A DNA stretch of 42,900 bases from assembly GCA_919902105.1 (NCBI GenBank), contig CAKKQO010000067.1:1-42900 (forward strand). The letters are read 5' to 3'. A program made the translations under genes and the position numbers. Origin of the DNA: Omnitrophica bacterium GWA2_41_15 (GTDB lineage Bacteria; Omnitrophota; Gorgyraeia; Ghiorseimicrobiales; Ghiorseimicrobiaceae). This document shows positions 7,799-34,984 of this stretch, in pieces. Under the pieces are notes generated by a model that made no database searches, was not told where the DNA came from, and saw nothing but the letters and a program-made list of their open reading frames with translations. The stretch's first letter is position 1. Each line of letters opens with the position of its first letter.

Positions 7799-7830
7799 TT
7801 CCGCCGTAGGCGGATCCGCCTTTGGCGGAA
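7799..7830. repeat. GC-rich double-hairpin palindrome between aspS and the LysM gene
   Basis: TTCCGCC-gta-GGCGGATCCGCC-ttt-GGCGGAA. It is a dyad of two hairpins centred on GGATCC. The same AGGCGGATCC module appears inside queD (28028-28081), and CCGCCTTTGGCGG appears inside queC (27579-27650), so it belongs to a dispersed family. No T-run follows, so it is not a clear intrinsic terminator. Confidence 0.6.
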
Positions 7831-17294: not shown

Positions 17295-17304
17295 AATTAT
17301 CTCC

Positions 17305-17490
17305 TCAATGACGACATAACTTATGGAGCGAAGCGCTCATAAGTTATATGTCGGAATTGATCCCGCCGAATGTATCAAAATTATAGTATAGAATTTTGAT
17401 ATTTCTTACCCTCTGCAATTCGAAGAATTGCGAGGACTTAGTCCCTGAAATTGTTTACCGAAGGTAAGCAATTTCTAGGGGTGAGGCGGG
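17305..17490 (-). repeat. Two-hairpin element (family H), expanded copy, in the guaB leader
   Basis: Read in the guaB direction, the element ends in TCATTGA (17311-17305), directly followed by GGAG of the guaB ribosome-binding site. Hairpin A: CATAACTTATG (17315-17325) with CATAAGTTAT (17338-17347). The linker is GGAATTGATC on the plus strand. Hairpin B is closed by CCCGCC (17362-17367) and GGCGGG (17485-17490). Inside B there are extra hairpins (ATCAAAATT/AATTTTGAT, GCAATTC/GAATTGC, TTTACC/GGTAAG), making this copy larger than the others. Confidence 0.7.
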
Positions 17491-24303: not shown

Positions 24304-24315
24304 TATTTCTTCCTC

Positions 24316-24427
24316 TCAATGAACCCACAACTTACAGAAACGAAGCTGATGTAAGTTGTTTGGGCGAATTGATCCCGATAGCTACAAGAAAATTTAGTAT
24401 AAATTTTCACCGTGATTTGCTATCGGG
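24316..24427 (-). repeat. Two-hairpin element (family H), rph copy
   Basis: In the rph direction the element ends in TCATTGA (24322-24316), directly before the rph ribosome-binding site. Hairpin A: CAACTTAC (24329-24336 region) with GTAAGTTG (24351-24358). Linker: GGGCGAATTGATCCCG. Hairpin B: CCCGATAGC (24374-24382) with GCTATCGGG (24419-24427), and an inner AAAATTT/AAATTTT stem. A fragment resembling the element start (CAATGACATAACTTA) follows at about 24444-24458. Confidence 0.75.
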
Positions 24428-24467
24428 ACAAAGTTACCTTAACCAATGACATAACTTAGCTCTTAAT

Positions 24468-26374: not shown

Positions 26375-26447
26375 GTCTTTTCTACACGGATGGATACGGT
26401 TTTCCCATAACACTGATATGCGCAGATATTCTTTATCAGCGTTAATC

Positions 26448-26467
26448 CCTGCCTGCCGGCAGGCAGG
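26448..26467. repeat. Perfect 20-bp palindrome between queE and queF
   Basis: CCTGCCTGCC followed by its complement GGCAGGCAGG, with a run of T (26470-26475) to the right on the plus strand. On the coding (minus) strand there is no T-run after it, so it is not a terminator for queE. TATCAGCGTT occurs as a direct repeat on both sides (about 26435 and 26487). Part of a low-complexity repeat stretch 26400-26494. Confidence 0.6.
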
Positions 26468-26494: not shown

Positions 26495-27181
26495 TCAATG
26501 CACTGCTAAATACTTATGCACCTGCGGGATAATCCTTACATCTGAAACAGCGTGAAATAAAGTATCCTGATAAGACTTAGCTTTATCTATAAGGCGCTTG
26601 CTTAATTCAAAAGTGTTAGGCTGAATGATCAGCGGGATATCTCTTCCTGACTCCTTTATCAACTGCATTACCCTTTGGATATCATCGTCGTGAGTCGATA
26701 GGCAGACAATACATTTAATAAAGACCTCTTTTTTTATAGCTAACTCTAAAAATCTTTTATGCTCCTTCCAGTATTCTTCATGCTTGCCGGAAGTGGGCAG
26801 CTTAAAATCCATGGCAATAATATCAATATAATCAATCACTTCCTCGAGCTCCTTATGCAGTATCCCATTCGTCTCAAGGTAGGTCTTAGTTGCGTCTTCT
26901 TTTATTAATTTAAGCACCTCCTTTAAAAAATCCTTCTGCAAGAGCGGTTCTCCGCCTGTAAGGCTGATTGAGTGATAATTTTTTTCAAATCTCGAAATTA
27001 CATCAAATAATTCGCCAGGGGTATATTTCTCATAACTAGACTGAGGTGTATCGCAGAAAACACAATCCAAATTACAGCCGTAGAACCTCACAAATAACTG
27101 CCGCGCTCCGGTATAAAGGCCTTCTCCTTGAATACTCGAGAATACCTCTGAGACTTTTCCTGATAATGATGGTTTAAGCAT
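26495..27181 (-). CDS. queE: 7-carboxy-7-deazaguanine synthase (radical SAM)
   Basis: 228 aa. It converts CPH4 to CDG, the third step of queuosine precursor synthesis. VFSSIQGEGLYTGARQLFVR precedes the radical SAM cysteines FYGCNLDCVFCDT (CX3CX2C, about residues 34-41). SLTGGEPLLQ is the SAM-binding GGE motif, and YLETNG is typical of the family. The ATG at 27181 overlaps the end of queC by 8 bp. All three cluster cysteines are present, so it should be active. Confidence 0.93.
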   Translation of the reverse strand: MLKPSLSGKVSEVFSSIQGEGLYTGARQLFVRFYGCNLDCVFCDTPQSSYEKYTPGELFDVISRFEKNYHSISLTGGEPLLQKDFLKEVLKLIKEDATKTYLETNGILHKELEEVIDYIDIIAMDFKLPTSGKHEEYWKEHKRFLELAIKKEVFIKCIVCLSTHDDDIQRVMQLIKESGRDIPLIIQPNTFELSKRLIDKAKSYQDTLFHAVSDVRIIPQVHKYLAVH

Positions 27182-27902
27182 AGGCCGGGTCCTCCATCTG
27201 AAGAGCCAAAAAGCCCTTTTTTCTTAAAACACAACTGTCACAGGCGCCGCATGGTTTTTTGCCCCCCGCATAACAGGACCAGGTGAGCTCAAGCGGCACC
27301 CCTAAGTTTAACGCAGCCCTGACAATAGCCGTCTTGGTTTTATAAATCAGAGGTGTAAAAATTTTTATTTTCTTTCCTATCACTCCTTTCTTTGTGGCAA
27401 CTAATGCCAATTGGTTAAAAATTTTGAAATATCCCGGGCGACAATCCGGATATCCCGAAAAATCTACCGCGTTTGCGCCGATAAATATGCTGTCTGCTCC
27501 GATTGCCTCAGCATAGGAAAGAGCGAAACTTAAAAAAATAGTATTACGCGCCGGAACATAGGTTGAAGGAATAACGTTTGCCCGACCCGCTTTCGCGGGT
27601 GCCCCGCCAGTTTGCCAGCCACCGCCTTTGGCGGGGTGCCGTCCGAAGGCGGCATTTGCCGATTGAGGAATTGATATTTTCTTATCCAAAAGCGAAGAGC
27701 CTTTCCATGGCAGGCTTATTTTGATAACTTGATATTTACAACCTGCATACCGGGCTATTTCTTTGGCTGACGTAATCTCTCGCCTATGCCGCTGGCCATA
27801 GTCAAAAATCAAACAATAGGTTTTATAGCCTTTATTTTTTGCCCAAAATAAAGTTGTCGTTGAATCTAACCCGCCCGAGAGTAAAACAACCGCCCTTTTC
27901 AC
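27174..27902 (-). CDS. queC: 7-cyano-7-deazaguanine synthase with an in-frame repeat insertion
   Basis: 242 aa, starting with GTG at 27902 and sharing 1 bp with the queD stop. It makes preQ0 from CDG, ammonia and ATP. VVLLSGGLDSTTTLFWA is the PP-loop. STYVPARNTIFLSFALSYAE and DFSGYPDCRPGYF are family blocks. The C-terminal zinc site is CGACDSC with an upstream Cys (SCYAGGKKPCGACDSC). About 24 residues (85-108, AFGRHPAKGGGWQTGGAPAK then AGRA) lie before IPSTYVPARN and do not belong to the family; they are encoded by GC-rich palindromes. Confidence 0.93.
   Translation of the reverse strand: MKRAVVLLSGGLDSTTTLFWAKNKGYKTYCLIFDYGQRHRREITSAKEIARYAGCKYQVIKISLPWKGSSLLDKKISIPQSANAAFGRHPAKGGGWQTGGAPAKAGRANVIPSTYVPARNTIFLSFALSYAEAIGADSIFIGANAVDFSGYPDCRPGYFKIFNQLALVATKKGVIGKKIKIFTPLIYKTKTAIVRAALNLGVPLELTWSCYAGGKKPCGACDSCVLRKKGFLALQMEDPAYA
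27579..27650. repeat. GC-rich palindromic insertion inside queC
   Basis: ACCCGC-tttc-GCGGGT, CCCCGCCA...TGGCGGGG and CCGCC-ttt-GGCGG are packed into about 72 bp (24 codons), read in frame. The composition (Gly, Ala, Pro, Lys) and GC content differ from the flanking queC sequence. Shares the CCGCCTTTGGCGG module with 7799-7830. Confidence 0.7.
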
Positions 27903-28309
27903 TAATCATAATAGGTAGCCAAAGAATTCTCCGACTCCCATACCGTTACCGATTTAACAAGCGGAACATGAGATTTAATTCTGATATAAATATACTTGGC
28001 GATATTTTCCGAAGTAGGATTAACTTTTTTCCCGCCGGAGGCGGATCCCTGCCCGGACGAGCCGCGGGCGCCTGCGGCGGAAAAATATGGAATCTCATTG
28101 AGATACTTATGATCCAAAACCTCTAATATTTTATTTAGTTTCATCTTTAAATATTTAAAATCTAAAACCATCCCTATTTTATCTAAAACTTCGCTCTCTG
28201 CCGTAACCTCAACTTTCCAGTTATGGCCGTGCAACTCTTCACACTTGCCTTTGTATCCTTTTAAATTATGCGCCGCGCTAAAACTGGCTTCTATTTTTAT
28301 GCTGTACAT
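27902..28309 (-). CDS. queD: 6-carboxytetrahydropterin synthase with an in-frame repeat insertion
   Basis: 135 aa from the ATG at 28309 (MYSIKIEASFSAAHNL), the family start. It makes CPH4 from dihydroneopterin triphosphate. Zinc ligands: His in SAAHNL and the pair in HGHNW. The catalytic Cys lies in GKCEELHGHNW, with LDHKYLNEIPYF and NPTSENIAKYIYIRIK further on. Between NEIPYF and NPTSENIA, where relatives have a few residues, about 18 extra residues (77-94, SAAGARGSSGQGSASGGK) are encoded by a GC-rich repeat. It lies 10 bp after murI. Confidence 0.92.
   Translation of the reverse strand: MYSIKIEASFSAAHNLKGYKGKCEELHGHNWKVEVTAESEVLDKIGMVLDFKYLKMKLNKILEVLDHKYLNEIPYFSAAGARGSSGQGSASGGKKVNPTSENIAKYIYIRIKSHVPLVKSVTVWESENSLATYYD
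28028..28081. repeat. GC-rich palindromic insertion inside queD
   Basis: About 54 bp (18 codons) rich in GC, with CCCGCCGGAGGCGGATCC, GCCCGGACGAGCCGCGGGC and CGCCTGCGGCGG. The AGGCGGATCC module is shared with the palindrome at 7799-7830. The insertion is in frame and lies at a loop position of QueD. Confidence 0.7.
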
Positions 28310-28319
28310 AAGTGCCTCG

Positions 28320-29120
28320 TTAGCTAAGCTCTGCCTTTGATACATCTTTAACCGGATACCCCAAGAATCTCTCGGCTAAATTAGTAAACCATTCGGGGTT
28401 ATCGCTTACGTAAAATCTTGCCTTTCCTTTCTTTGTACTGCTAAGCAGGTTTTCAGAAACAAGCATCTTCTTAACTTCCATGCCAACCTGTTTAGCCGAA
28501 TCTATCAAAGTAACTTTCCTGCCCAAAACTTCTTGGAGCACTGATTTTAACAAAGGGTAATGCGTGCAGCCTAAAATAAGCGTATCCACATTCTTTTTAA
28601 TTAAAGGCTCCAGGTATTTCCTTGCCACATCTTTGGTTACTGGCGTATTTATCCAACCCTCTTCCACTAAAGGCACAAATAAAGGAGTAGCCGCGCTAAA
28701 GACCTTAATTTCAGGATCAAACTCTTTTATTAGATTCTCATAACTATGGCTTTTTATAGTGCTGGGCGTACCGATAACGCCTATACGCTTATTCTGCGTG
28801 GCATATACCGCTTCTCTTACTGCCGGTGTCAGCACCCCGACAATAGGGGCGCGAAAATGGTTTTTGATTACCGGCAAAGCCACGCTGGAGACGGTATTAC
28901 AGGCTACACAAATCAGCTTTACACTCTGCTTTAATAAAAATAAGATATTCTCGATAGAAAAGCGTATTACCGTCTCTTTGGATTTTATACCGTAAGGAAC
29001 GCGTGCGGTATCGCCGAAATAAACTATATCTTCCGCGGGTAACTGACGGATTAATTCTTTGGCTACGGTAAGCCCGCCCACGCCTGAATCAAAAATACCT
29101 ATTGGATAATCATTAGCCAT
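28320..29120 (-). CDS. murI: Glutamate racemase
   Basis: 266 aa, standard length. It supplies D-glutamate for peptidoglycan. IGIFDSGVGGLTVAKELIRQ and YFGDTARVPYG form the start. Both catalytic cysteines are present: VACNTVSSVAL (about residue 73) and ILGCTHYPLL (about residue 186). The ATG at 29120 overlaps the amidase stop region by 1 bp, tying two cell-wall genes together. Confidence 0.95.
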   Translation of the reverse strand: MANDYPIGIFDSGVGGLTVAKELIRQLPAEDIVYFGDTARVPYGIKSKETVIRFSIENILFLLKQSVKLICVACNTVSSVALPVIKNHFRAPIVGVLTPAVREAVYATQNKRIGVIGTPSTIKSHSYENLIKEFDPEIKVFSAATPLFVPLVEEGWINTPVTKDVARKYLEPLIKKNVDTLILGCTHYPLLKSVLQEVLGRKVTLIDSAKQVGMEVKKMLVSENLLSSTKKGKARFYVSDNPEWFTNLAERFLGYPVKDVSKAELS

Positions 29121-30326: not shown

Positions 30327-30730
30327 GGTGGCGAGAATCGAACTCGCGTCCTTAAATTTCAGAATAAAAGCCTCTACATGTTTAGTTTACCTTTTAAATC
30401 TCACCCTTGCTTACTTCGGTAAACGGAATTAACCAAAGGCCAGCCTTTTAAGATCTCGCTCAAGTATCAAAGGCTAATCTACCTAAGCTATCCTGCTTAC
30501 GACGCCTGGCCCTGTTCCACAGGCAGAACAGGCAGGCGGGTTACACTATTAGTGTAACACTGTCATCAACGGGCTGGGAACTATTTGCATAGTTGTCATT
30601 AACCCATTGAAGGTTGCTGGCATTTCTATTTTGTCAGCATTTGTGTTTTTGCAAGGTGTTTAACGAGGCCTCCTTGCCACCTCGACATGCCACCCTTACT
30701 CATCCATCTAAGTCGATGCCTTTCACCCCC
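30320..30730 (-). ncRNA. ssrA: Transfer-messenger RNA (tmRNA)
   Basis: 411 nt, one-piece form. The 3' tRNA-like end reads GGACGCGAGTTCGATTCTCG then CCACCTCCACCA. The 5' end GGGGGTG pairs with CACCTCC, keeping the G-U at position 3 that marks alanyl-tRNA synthetase recognition. Pseudoknot 1 is visible at 5' CGAGGTGGCAAGG...CCTCG...CCTTGC (about 30685-30651). The tag region lies at about 30640-30541. Two Ala-starting frames are open: GCT at 30638 (29 aa) and GCC at 30621 (26 aa, containing NDNYANSSQPVDDSVTLIV). Neither ends in the usual LAA. It rescues stalled ribosomes with SmpB, encoded just upstream. Confidence 0.93.
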
Positions 30731-31037
30731 TCAATGACGACACAACTTATGGAAATCATAAATTGACATAAGTTGTTTGTCGGAATTGATGCCGAAAGCT
30801 GCGAGAAAAATTTGCAACAAATTTTTAAGCGCTTAGCTTTCGGCGCAATCATCTACAAAATCTCGCTTTCAGTGCACGAATTGATCCCGTTGAGTGTATC
30901 AAAATTGTAGGATTAGAATTTTGATACATTTTACGAAACGGGACAAATCACAGGTTGATGTAAGTTCTTTGCCGGAATTGATACCGACAGCTGCAATGAA
31001 AATTTGGAACAAATTTTCGCAGCGCTTTGCTGTCGGT
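30731..31037 (-). repeat. Three tandem family H hairpin units between smpB and ssrA
   Basis: The unit nearest ssrA has TCATTGA (30737-30731) touching the tmRNA 5' end. Its hairpin A is ACAACTTATG (30742-30751) with CATAAGTTGT (30767-30776), and hairpin B is GCCGAAAGC (30791-30799) with GCTTTCGGC (30836-30844). The second unit has only a B-type hairpin, CCCGTT (30886-30891) with AACGGG (30937-30942), around TATCAAAATT/AATTTTGATA. The third has a short GATGTAAGTTC trace and hairpin B ACCGACAGC (30983-30991) with GCTGTCGGT (31029-31037). The units fill the whole smpB-ssrA gap. Confidence 0.75.
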
Positions 31038-31041
31038 ATGT

Positions 31042-32607: not shown

Positions 32608-32720
32608 ACTCCTTGCTTAAGCGCTTGAAAATTTCGGAGAAATTTTCTACGCAAGCTTCGGAGTCAATTCGCCCAAGCAACTTACCTCAGCTTCGCTTCT
32701 GTAAGTTGTGGGCTCATTGA
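32608..32720 (+). repeat. Two-hairpin element (family H), tRNA-Leu copy
   Basis: Hairpin B: ACTCC (32608-32612) with GGAGT (32660-32664) around the perfect GAAAATTTC/GAAATTTTC stem. Linker: CAATTCGCCCAAG. Hairpin A: CAACTTAC (32678-32685) with GTAAGTTG (32701-32708). The element ends GGCTCATTGA at 32720, and the tRNA begins at 32721. Orientation relative to the gene is the same as in the guaB, rph and ssrA copies. Confidence 0.75.
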
Positions 32721-32804
32721 GCGGAGGTGGTGAAATGGCAGACACGCAGGTCTCAGAAGCCTGTGCCGCAAGGCATGAGGGTTCAACTCCCTCCCTCCGC
32801 ACCA
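32721..32804 (+). tRNA. tRNA-Leu (CAG)
   Basis: Acceptor stem GCGGAGG with CCTCCGC, then A-CCA encoded. Anticodon arm CAGGT-CTCAGAA-GCCTG gives anticodon CAG (codon CUG). A class II long variable arm (TGCCGCAAGGCA) and T arm GAGGG-TTCAACT-CCCTC are present. 84 nt with CCA. It has its own promoter, with a structured repeat in its leader. Confidence 0.95.
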
Positions 32805-34770: not shown

Positions 34771-34984
34771 TTAATGGTTCTGGTGTTTTTGAGCGAATAT
34801 GATTTTTAGCAAAGCAGCTTGAACAGTTGAGGGAATCCAAACGTGGAAACATTTGGATGGCGAGGATGTCTGAGCTCGTCCCACGGACGTAAGTCCCGAC
34901 GAGCGAGTTCCGCAGCCACCGAAACTGCGAAAGAACTTTGCGTAAAAAAATTATCCTGAGCGAAAAAATAGCCAGAGCTATTAA
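34771..34984 (+). repeat. Long palindromic repeat, family P, copy 2
   Basis: 214 bp, about the same length and the same orientation as 2674-2886. Shared core: GAGCGAATATGATTTTTAGC (34791-34810), then CCAAACGTGGAAACATTTGG, TGAGCTCGTCCC and CCCGACGAGCGAGTT. The outer arms differ from copy 1 but still pair with each other (TTAATGG-TTCTGG with CCAGAGCTATTAA). The GCTCGTC/GACGAGC hairpin is identical in both. Confidence 0.75.

Follow-up and report, generated by a model that had tools for sequence, protein, structure and literature searches.

A 15-bp hairpin element lies in frame in queD and other conserved genes of an Omnitrophica bacterium and recurs across distant phyla

The insert in queD and its copy in mnmA

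The window, a stretch of 42,900 nucleotides that corresponds to contig C67 of Omnitrophica bacterium GWA2_41_15 (genome G000; 1.45 Mb, 83 contigs, 89.75% complete), carries the neighbouring genes queC and queD, each with a GC-rich palindromic sequence inside it (Table 1). The one in queD is a copy of a family of palindromic elements. An earlier sequence-only reading had proposed an in-frame GC-rich palindromic repeat at this place, and empty sites in relatives, a 98% identical copy in mnmA and a genome-wide family all bear this out. The span that it gave, 28028-28081, was slightly too wide; the measured insert is 51 bp long.

Table 1. Genes and palindromic features of the window
Feature	Positions	Strand	Basis
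queC, neighbouring gene with its own palindromic insert	27174..27902	-	ORF; Pfam QueC, E=1.4e-70
Palindrome of a second family inside queC, part of ...NAAFGRHPAKGGGWQ..., with CCGCCTTTGGCGG core	27614..27659		homologous copy at G000:C10:676-699; 18 residues of this stretch missing from QueC of G001
queD (6-carboxytetrahydropterin synthase), gene that carries the 51-bp insert	27902..28345	-	ORF; Pfam PTPS, E=1.1e-38; solved QueD relatives
Composite palindromic insert of 51 bp, encoding SAAGARGSSGQGSASGG in frame	28031..28081	-	length and translation; absent in 29/29 relatives; 98% identical copy in mnmA
Nested 21-bp piece within the double unit (ARGSSGQ)	28049..28069	-	double unit of G001 mnmA lacks these 21 bp
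TTCCGCCGTAGGCGGATCCGCCTTTGGCGGAA, a plain double unit that is probably intergenic and lies at an ORF end or close to one	7799..7830		sequence; hairpin fold z=-3.9

The insert sits between the codons TTT and AAA, supplies residues 89-105 of the 147-residue QueD and has a GC content of 84%, against 35% in the remainder of the gene. Between DHxxLN and NPTSEN the protein has 37 residues, compared with 20 in all 29 relatives that were read, so that exactly 17 residues are extra. The alignment which the sequence-only reading had called for thus shows a loop that is not common in QueD. A single-sequence structure prediction gave pLDDT values below 50 over residues 88-105, as in a loose loop. The model is weak overall (mean pLDDT 59.6), although QueD/PTPS folds were still found with it, and it suggests only that the insert is unstructured.

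Such a loop might have been made by the host as a functional part of QueD, with no connection to mobile DNA. Proteins can tolerate Gly/Ser loops or benefit from them, and around the insert the active-site motifs of QueD look intact in sequence. Yet the same DNA, 98% identical, lies in the unrelated mnmA, and its unit occurs in many unrelated proteins, which leaves next to no room for this explanation; on this ground a function of the loop for QueD was rejected.

The basic unit of the family is a 15-bp hairpin, TCCGCCNNNGGCGGA, with a 5-bp core stem plus a T-A pair and a loop of 3 nt, mostly NNA. Units occur singly and as doubles, the common 30-bp form being two of them in inverted tandem. Placed head to tail, two units yield ...GGCGGA|TCCGCC..., of which AGGCGGATCC is the junction. 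The sequence-only reading had regarded AGGCGGATCC as the core of a repeated module that also occurs at 7799-7830. The sequence is indeed repeated (11 copies on each strand of the genome, against none of the reversed control), with matches in the window at 7808, 7812 (reverse) and 28039, and the DNA of the insert is not unique; that reading is refined in that AGGCGGATCC is only the point where two 15-bp units meet.

In queD the insert is composite and consists of a double unit into which a further 21 bp are nested. Its counterpart in mnmA (G000:C34:1834-1888) is read in the same frame (SAAGARGSYGQGSASGG). At the same place, mnmA of the sister species G001 has a plain 30-bp double unit (STAGGSASGG / TCCACCGCAGGCGGATCCGCCTCCGGCGGA), that of G002 has one unit-like GSSFGG, and in G003 and G005 there is no such unit. 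With up to 3 mismatches allowed, the composite core was found twice in 384 genomes, both times in G000, and the same search revealed nothing of the nested 21 bp beyond these two copies. Both copies, in mnmA and in queD, end on the same base (GGCGGG), and immediately beyond it their right flanks are unrelated (CAT versus AAA). The copied piece therefore stops where the element stops. Since mnmA of G001 has just the 30-bp unit in its plain form, it is probable, and the simplest order of events, that the composite originated in mnmA and that queD then received a copy, a direction read from this one sister species; gene conversion into mnmA from a third copy, since lost, may also account for the pattern.

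Insertions in both queC and queD had been noted from the sequence, and both genes have one. They are not the same element: the one in queC belongs to a second, related palindrome family, whose one other copy in the genome (C10:676-699) directly adjoins a double CCGCC unit. The common pathway of queC and queD is apparently a coincidence, since inserts also occur in genes with no such relation (leuS, dapF, mnmE, trpE, cobT and others).

Further repeats were seen in the window. A palindrome family at 26444-26467, CCTGCCTGCCGGCAGGCAGG, reads PACRQAG, and some of its copies lie in ORFs; it has 26 forward and 24 reverse matches in the genome (at most 1 mismatch, overlapping matches included) against 0 for the control, and dapF also has a PVRQAG piece. 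A repeated element of about 85 nt occurs at 17303-17389, 24311-24431, 30729-30848, 30950-31040 and 32618-32725 in both orientations, its copies being 60-90% alike and some of them lying close to the genes for tmRNA and tRNA-Leu; in other parts of the genome, similar sequences have a single central CCGCCNNNGGCGG unit. Finally, a 121-nt direct repeat (2720-2840 and 34819-34939) is 83% identical over a distance of 32 kb.

In-frame copies in other genes of the genome

The exact core CCGCCNNNGGCGG occurs 48 times in the genome and once as the reversed control. In 30 of the 48 it is flanked by T and A, which gives the exact 15-mer TCCGCCNNNGGCGGA. A pattern that tolerates two mismatching core bases picked out ten plain double units in the stretches examined; regular-expression scans for imperfect units do not enter these counts. 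Across 384 genomes of the class, the exact 15-mer was counted 1910 times in 267 genomes, and the control 102 times in 60.

The motif is in frame in 15 genes, namely cobT, folC, mnmA, trpE, dapF, dapA, purD, leuS, dnaK, prmC, argS, secA, mnmE, xerC and queD (ten named by NCBIfam, queD by Pfam, and dapA, dnaK, secA and xerC by eye). Twelve of them read it as SAxGG or a similar sequence (PACGG in prmC) and three, trpE, mnmE and xerC, as PPxAD; a binomial test of this split against an expected share of one third gives p=0.0003. A copy beside lpxK, at an ORF start, was excluded, as the alignment of relatives begins beyond it.

Comparison with relatives, which covered 14 of the 15 genes (all but dnaK), revealed that in at least 9 conserved genes the in-frame copy is missing or simpler in related genomes. 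A net insertion of 30 bp distinguishes trpE, dapF and mnmE from their G001 counterparts, and the corresponding figures are 15 bp for dapA and leuS, 27 bp for cobT and 51 bp for queD. The boundaries are precise in dapF, where filled and empty sites differ by an exact 30-bp insertion between ...GAACT and AAGAAC, with no target duplication. The double unit of folC is present in G001 at the same place, with substitutions, and absent in G005. Other genes gave less regular results: prmC differs by 21 bp net and carries a CCC...GGG variant, not cleanly inserted; purD differs from G001 by 6 bp net, also not cleanly; argS and secA show zero net length against G001 (argS 15 bp against G005); and in xerC, G001 has a longer, different insertion. 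In purD, argS and secA the unit-like motif takes the place of residues, with no clean addition of 15 bp relative to G001; judging from these alignments, some copies may be eroded or of other origin.

The dapF gene of G005 (L127, L135) carries a different insert, SAIRYPCLAGRQA, at the loop that holds the SAxGG element here. The dapF loop thus accepts inserts from more than one family.

Reading frame and spread across bacteria

At least 116 stretches of the GTDB genome collection contain the exact double unit, defined by its 24 fixed bases, where chance would give at most 0.1 even at 70% GC. The list of matches is a sample in scan order and not a census. Counted by hand, the names of the 80 titled matches listed comprise 45 Patescibacteria, 9 Omnitrophota, 5 Kiritimatiellae, 10 unnamed bacteria, two each of Lentisphaerae, Ignavibacteria, Chloroflexota and Auribacterota, and one each of Firestonebacteria, Margulisiibacteriota and Deltaproteobacteria; there was no Rickettsia among these 80. 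Several of the titled contigs listed come from groundwater. Pfam searches at 10 loci identified the host genes as those for primase, PheT, a UvrD-type helicase, cysteinyl-tRNA ligase, an ATP synthase alpha/beta subunit, RpoB, TsaD and others, as well as DnaJ, with two inserts in one protein. The viral collection yielded 1 stretch with the double unit, so that phages are apparently not its chief vehicle.

At three loci (L206, titled Ignavibacteria, L250 and L259) a YPNPF|NPST-like motif is interrupted by the double unit and is thus a repeated landing site. This motif resembles the type IX sorting domain.

Copies inside and between genes were scored together with their reading frames, as the sequence-only reading had suggested. 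At least 122 double-unit sites were available in the GTDB and viral loci listed: 78 are read in the SAxGG phase of a long ORF, 5 and 4 in the other two phases, and 35 lie in no ORF of 150 residues, so that 87 of these 122 are in long ORFs and one frame dominates. We then compared the phases with an expectation composed of site preference and stop avoidance, the former measured on the same copies, genic ones included. For this the viral locus and sites too near the edge of a stretch were dropped, which left 120 of the listed sites. The 85 of them that fall in long ORFs are distributed 77:4:4, against an expected 41.5:20.4:23.0 (p ~1e-13), and the dominant frame of these 77 copies reads SAxGGSAxGG. 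A bias of this size implies filtering at the protein level and hence, as far as phase counts can tell, inserts that are translated rather than removed from the RNA.

Of the 120 listed double units, 31 are perfect palindromes, compared with 16.7 expected by shuffling. Most of the listed copies have T at -2 and A at +2, with mostly T or C before the element and A or G after it.

These results bear on two further explanations. A DNA uptake signal or a transcription terminator could happen to fall in genes as well, and the flanks of copies outside genes are indeed T-rich and A-rich, as those of a two-way terminator would be. We consider this very improbable, given that 30 exact 15-mers in 1.45 Mb is a low copy number, that copies arise through insertion and not through point change, and that most of the listed double units lie in long ORFs in one frame. 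An assembly or library artefact seems virtually negligible. It is true that the genomes are mostly metagenome assemblies and that GGATCC is a common cloning site, but the folC copy stands at the same place in two species and has acquired substitutions; moreover, copies come from many projects, vary in their loops and show the frame bias.

Mobility of the element and its relation to known systems

Overall, the observations are best explained by a non-autonomous mobile palindrome that is selected by frame and whose composite form was copied from mnmA to queD, a reading that we hold with considerable confidence on the strength of sequence comparison. The evidence for movement is comparative throughout and comes from metagenome assemblies. 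A very small palindrome would enter DNA at sites that are T/Y-rich on one side and R/A-rich on the other, with a TT|AA-like consensus, and would leave the target unduplicated. It would be able to land in genes because its lengths (15, 30 and 51) are multiples of three and because it is nearly free of stop codons. Selection would then retain mainly the Ser-Ala-x-Gly-Gly-Ser-Ala-x-Gly-Gly readings, which as flexible linkers would sit in tolerant loops. On the line leading to this genome, mnmA would already have held a double unit when a GC-rich piece of 21 bp entered that unit, and queD would then have received a copy of the 51-bp composite so formed. Replicative copying by an activity that acts in trans on hairpin DNA is likely, and horizontal transfer could have carried the element between phyla.

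What performs the copying is a separate matter, for which the search for enzymes covered Y1_Tnp. One candidate is a REP-like process in which a RAYT-type Y1 HUH transposase cuts hairpins from single-stranded DNA and joins them at TT|AA-like sites without target duplication. Hairpin units, dimers and the lack of a target duplication suit Y1 chemistry, and a Y1_Tnp gene is present in all 23 genomes of the class with at least 20 copies, compared with 274 of 361 others (p=0.004; Spearman 0.20; kinship, genome size and completeness uncorrected). We nevertheless think it rather unlikely that this enzyme is involved. A GTAG or CGTC tag lies within 10 bp of an end in 4 and 5 of 118 copies, which is about chance; 8 genomes with at least 8 copies show no Y1 match; and these hairpins are absent within ~1.5 kb on either side of the two Y1_Tnp genes in our genome. 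A link to RAYT is thus unsupported at the level of the locus and amounts to a weak association of counts. Repeats of the GGGACAC type (ATTAGGGACACATCC... and GGGGACACTCTT...) border both Y1 genes (L112, L113) and form a repeat system of their own.

Alternatively, no dedicated transposase may be needed, and hairpin DNA could be copied by repair, by template switching or by uptake from neighbours, with short T/A tracts in the flanks as a guide. The flank preference is indeed weak rather than a strict target, neither Y1_Tnp gene of the genome is linked to the hairpins, and the listed matches come from many phyla, several titled contigs being from groundwater. This possibility appears doubtful to us in view of the sharp ends of the copies, since the unrelated right flanks in mnmA and queD and the clean 30-bp insertion in dapF suggest recognised ends.

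Protein-coding palindromes are best known from Rickettsia, and no mechanism of their movement is known to have been established. Our palindrome is not known to share its sequence with theirs.

As described in the cited text, the Rickettsia palindromic elements (RPEs) and their Wolbachia counterpart are palindromes that occupy in-frame positions in numerous conserved genes of unrelated function, occur in intergenic DNA too and are tolerated by proteins (PMC2229807, PMC10969869). Our element shares the in-frame position in conserved, unrelated genes with empty sites in relatives. The RPEs are set apart by their description, which comes from Rickettsia and gives lengths of 105-146 or ~150 bp, whereas the element here has 15, 30 or 51 bp and is common in exactly the same form to many phyla. 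RPE sequences of R. conorii are also said to end in CGTC (PMC3733652), an end that ours does not have.

REPs of the GTAG and CGTC families are presented in the same source as 20-40 bp hairpins, which occur as singles and dimers and are sometimes, in several species, intragenic, although most are intergenic (PMC3733652). The element agrees with this description in its hairpin, whose 5-bp core stem falls within the 5-13 bp of REPs, and in its singles and dimers. Unlike those REPs, it has no GTAG/CGTC tag above chance and no linked RAYT in this genome, and 87 of the 122 listed copies lie in ORFs of 150 residues or more.

Bacterial MITEs, which are characterised as short, non-autonomous and capable of in-frame fusion (PMC2229807), resemble the element in all three respects; they differ from it in that the dapF copy has no target duplication and that the element has neither long terminal inverted repeats with a spacer nor TA ends of its own. 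PARCELs are likewise coding palindromic repeats that spread horizontally between distant microbes (PMC2996958). By their published outline, however, they consist of amphipathic repeats of 25 residues, arranged in tandem within unassigned ORFs (PMC2996958), while here single inserts of 5, 10 or 17 residues occupy conserved enzymes. The element therefore behaves like RPEs and intragenic REPs, yet departs from them in tag, size and linkage to a transposase. Among the open-licence papers listed, judged by title and the start of the abstract, we found none that describes it in Patescibacteria or Omnitrophota.

We also advance a broader proposal, for which the arguments seem to us evenly balanced. 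A single minimal mobile hairpin, with 15 bp per unit and SAxGG as its linker, may have passed by horizontal transfer among Patescibacteria, Omnitrophota, Kiritimatiellae, Ignavibacteria and other phyla, and may go on inserting itself in frame into such core genes as rpoB, dnaJ and those for ATP synthase and tRNA ligases, by means of an undescribed mobilising activity, its frame and linker chemistry making it tolerable to proteins.

The family is far smaller than the RPEs, is open in nearly all frames and is identical letter for letter outside its loops in distant uncultured phyla. The hop of the composite from mnmA to queD would be datable and the empty sites are known, so the mechanism can be put to the test. 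Many predicted proteins of Patescibacteria and Omnitrophota may contain SAxGGSAxGG inserts that originate from mobile DNA, and inserts of such origin matter to alignments, structure prediction and annotation.
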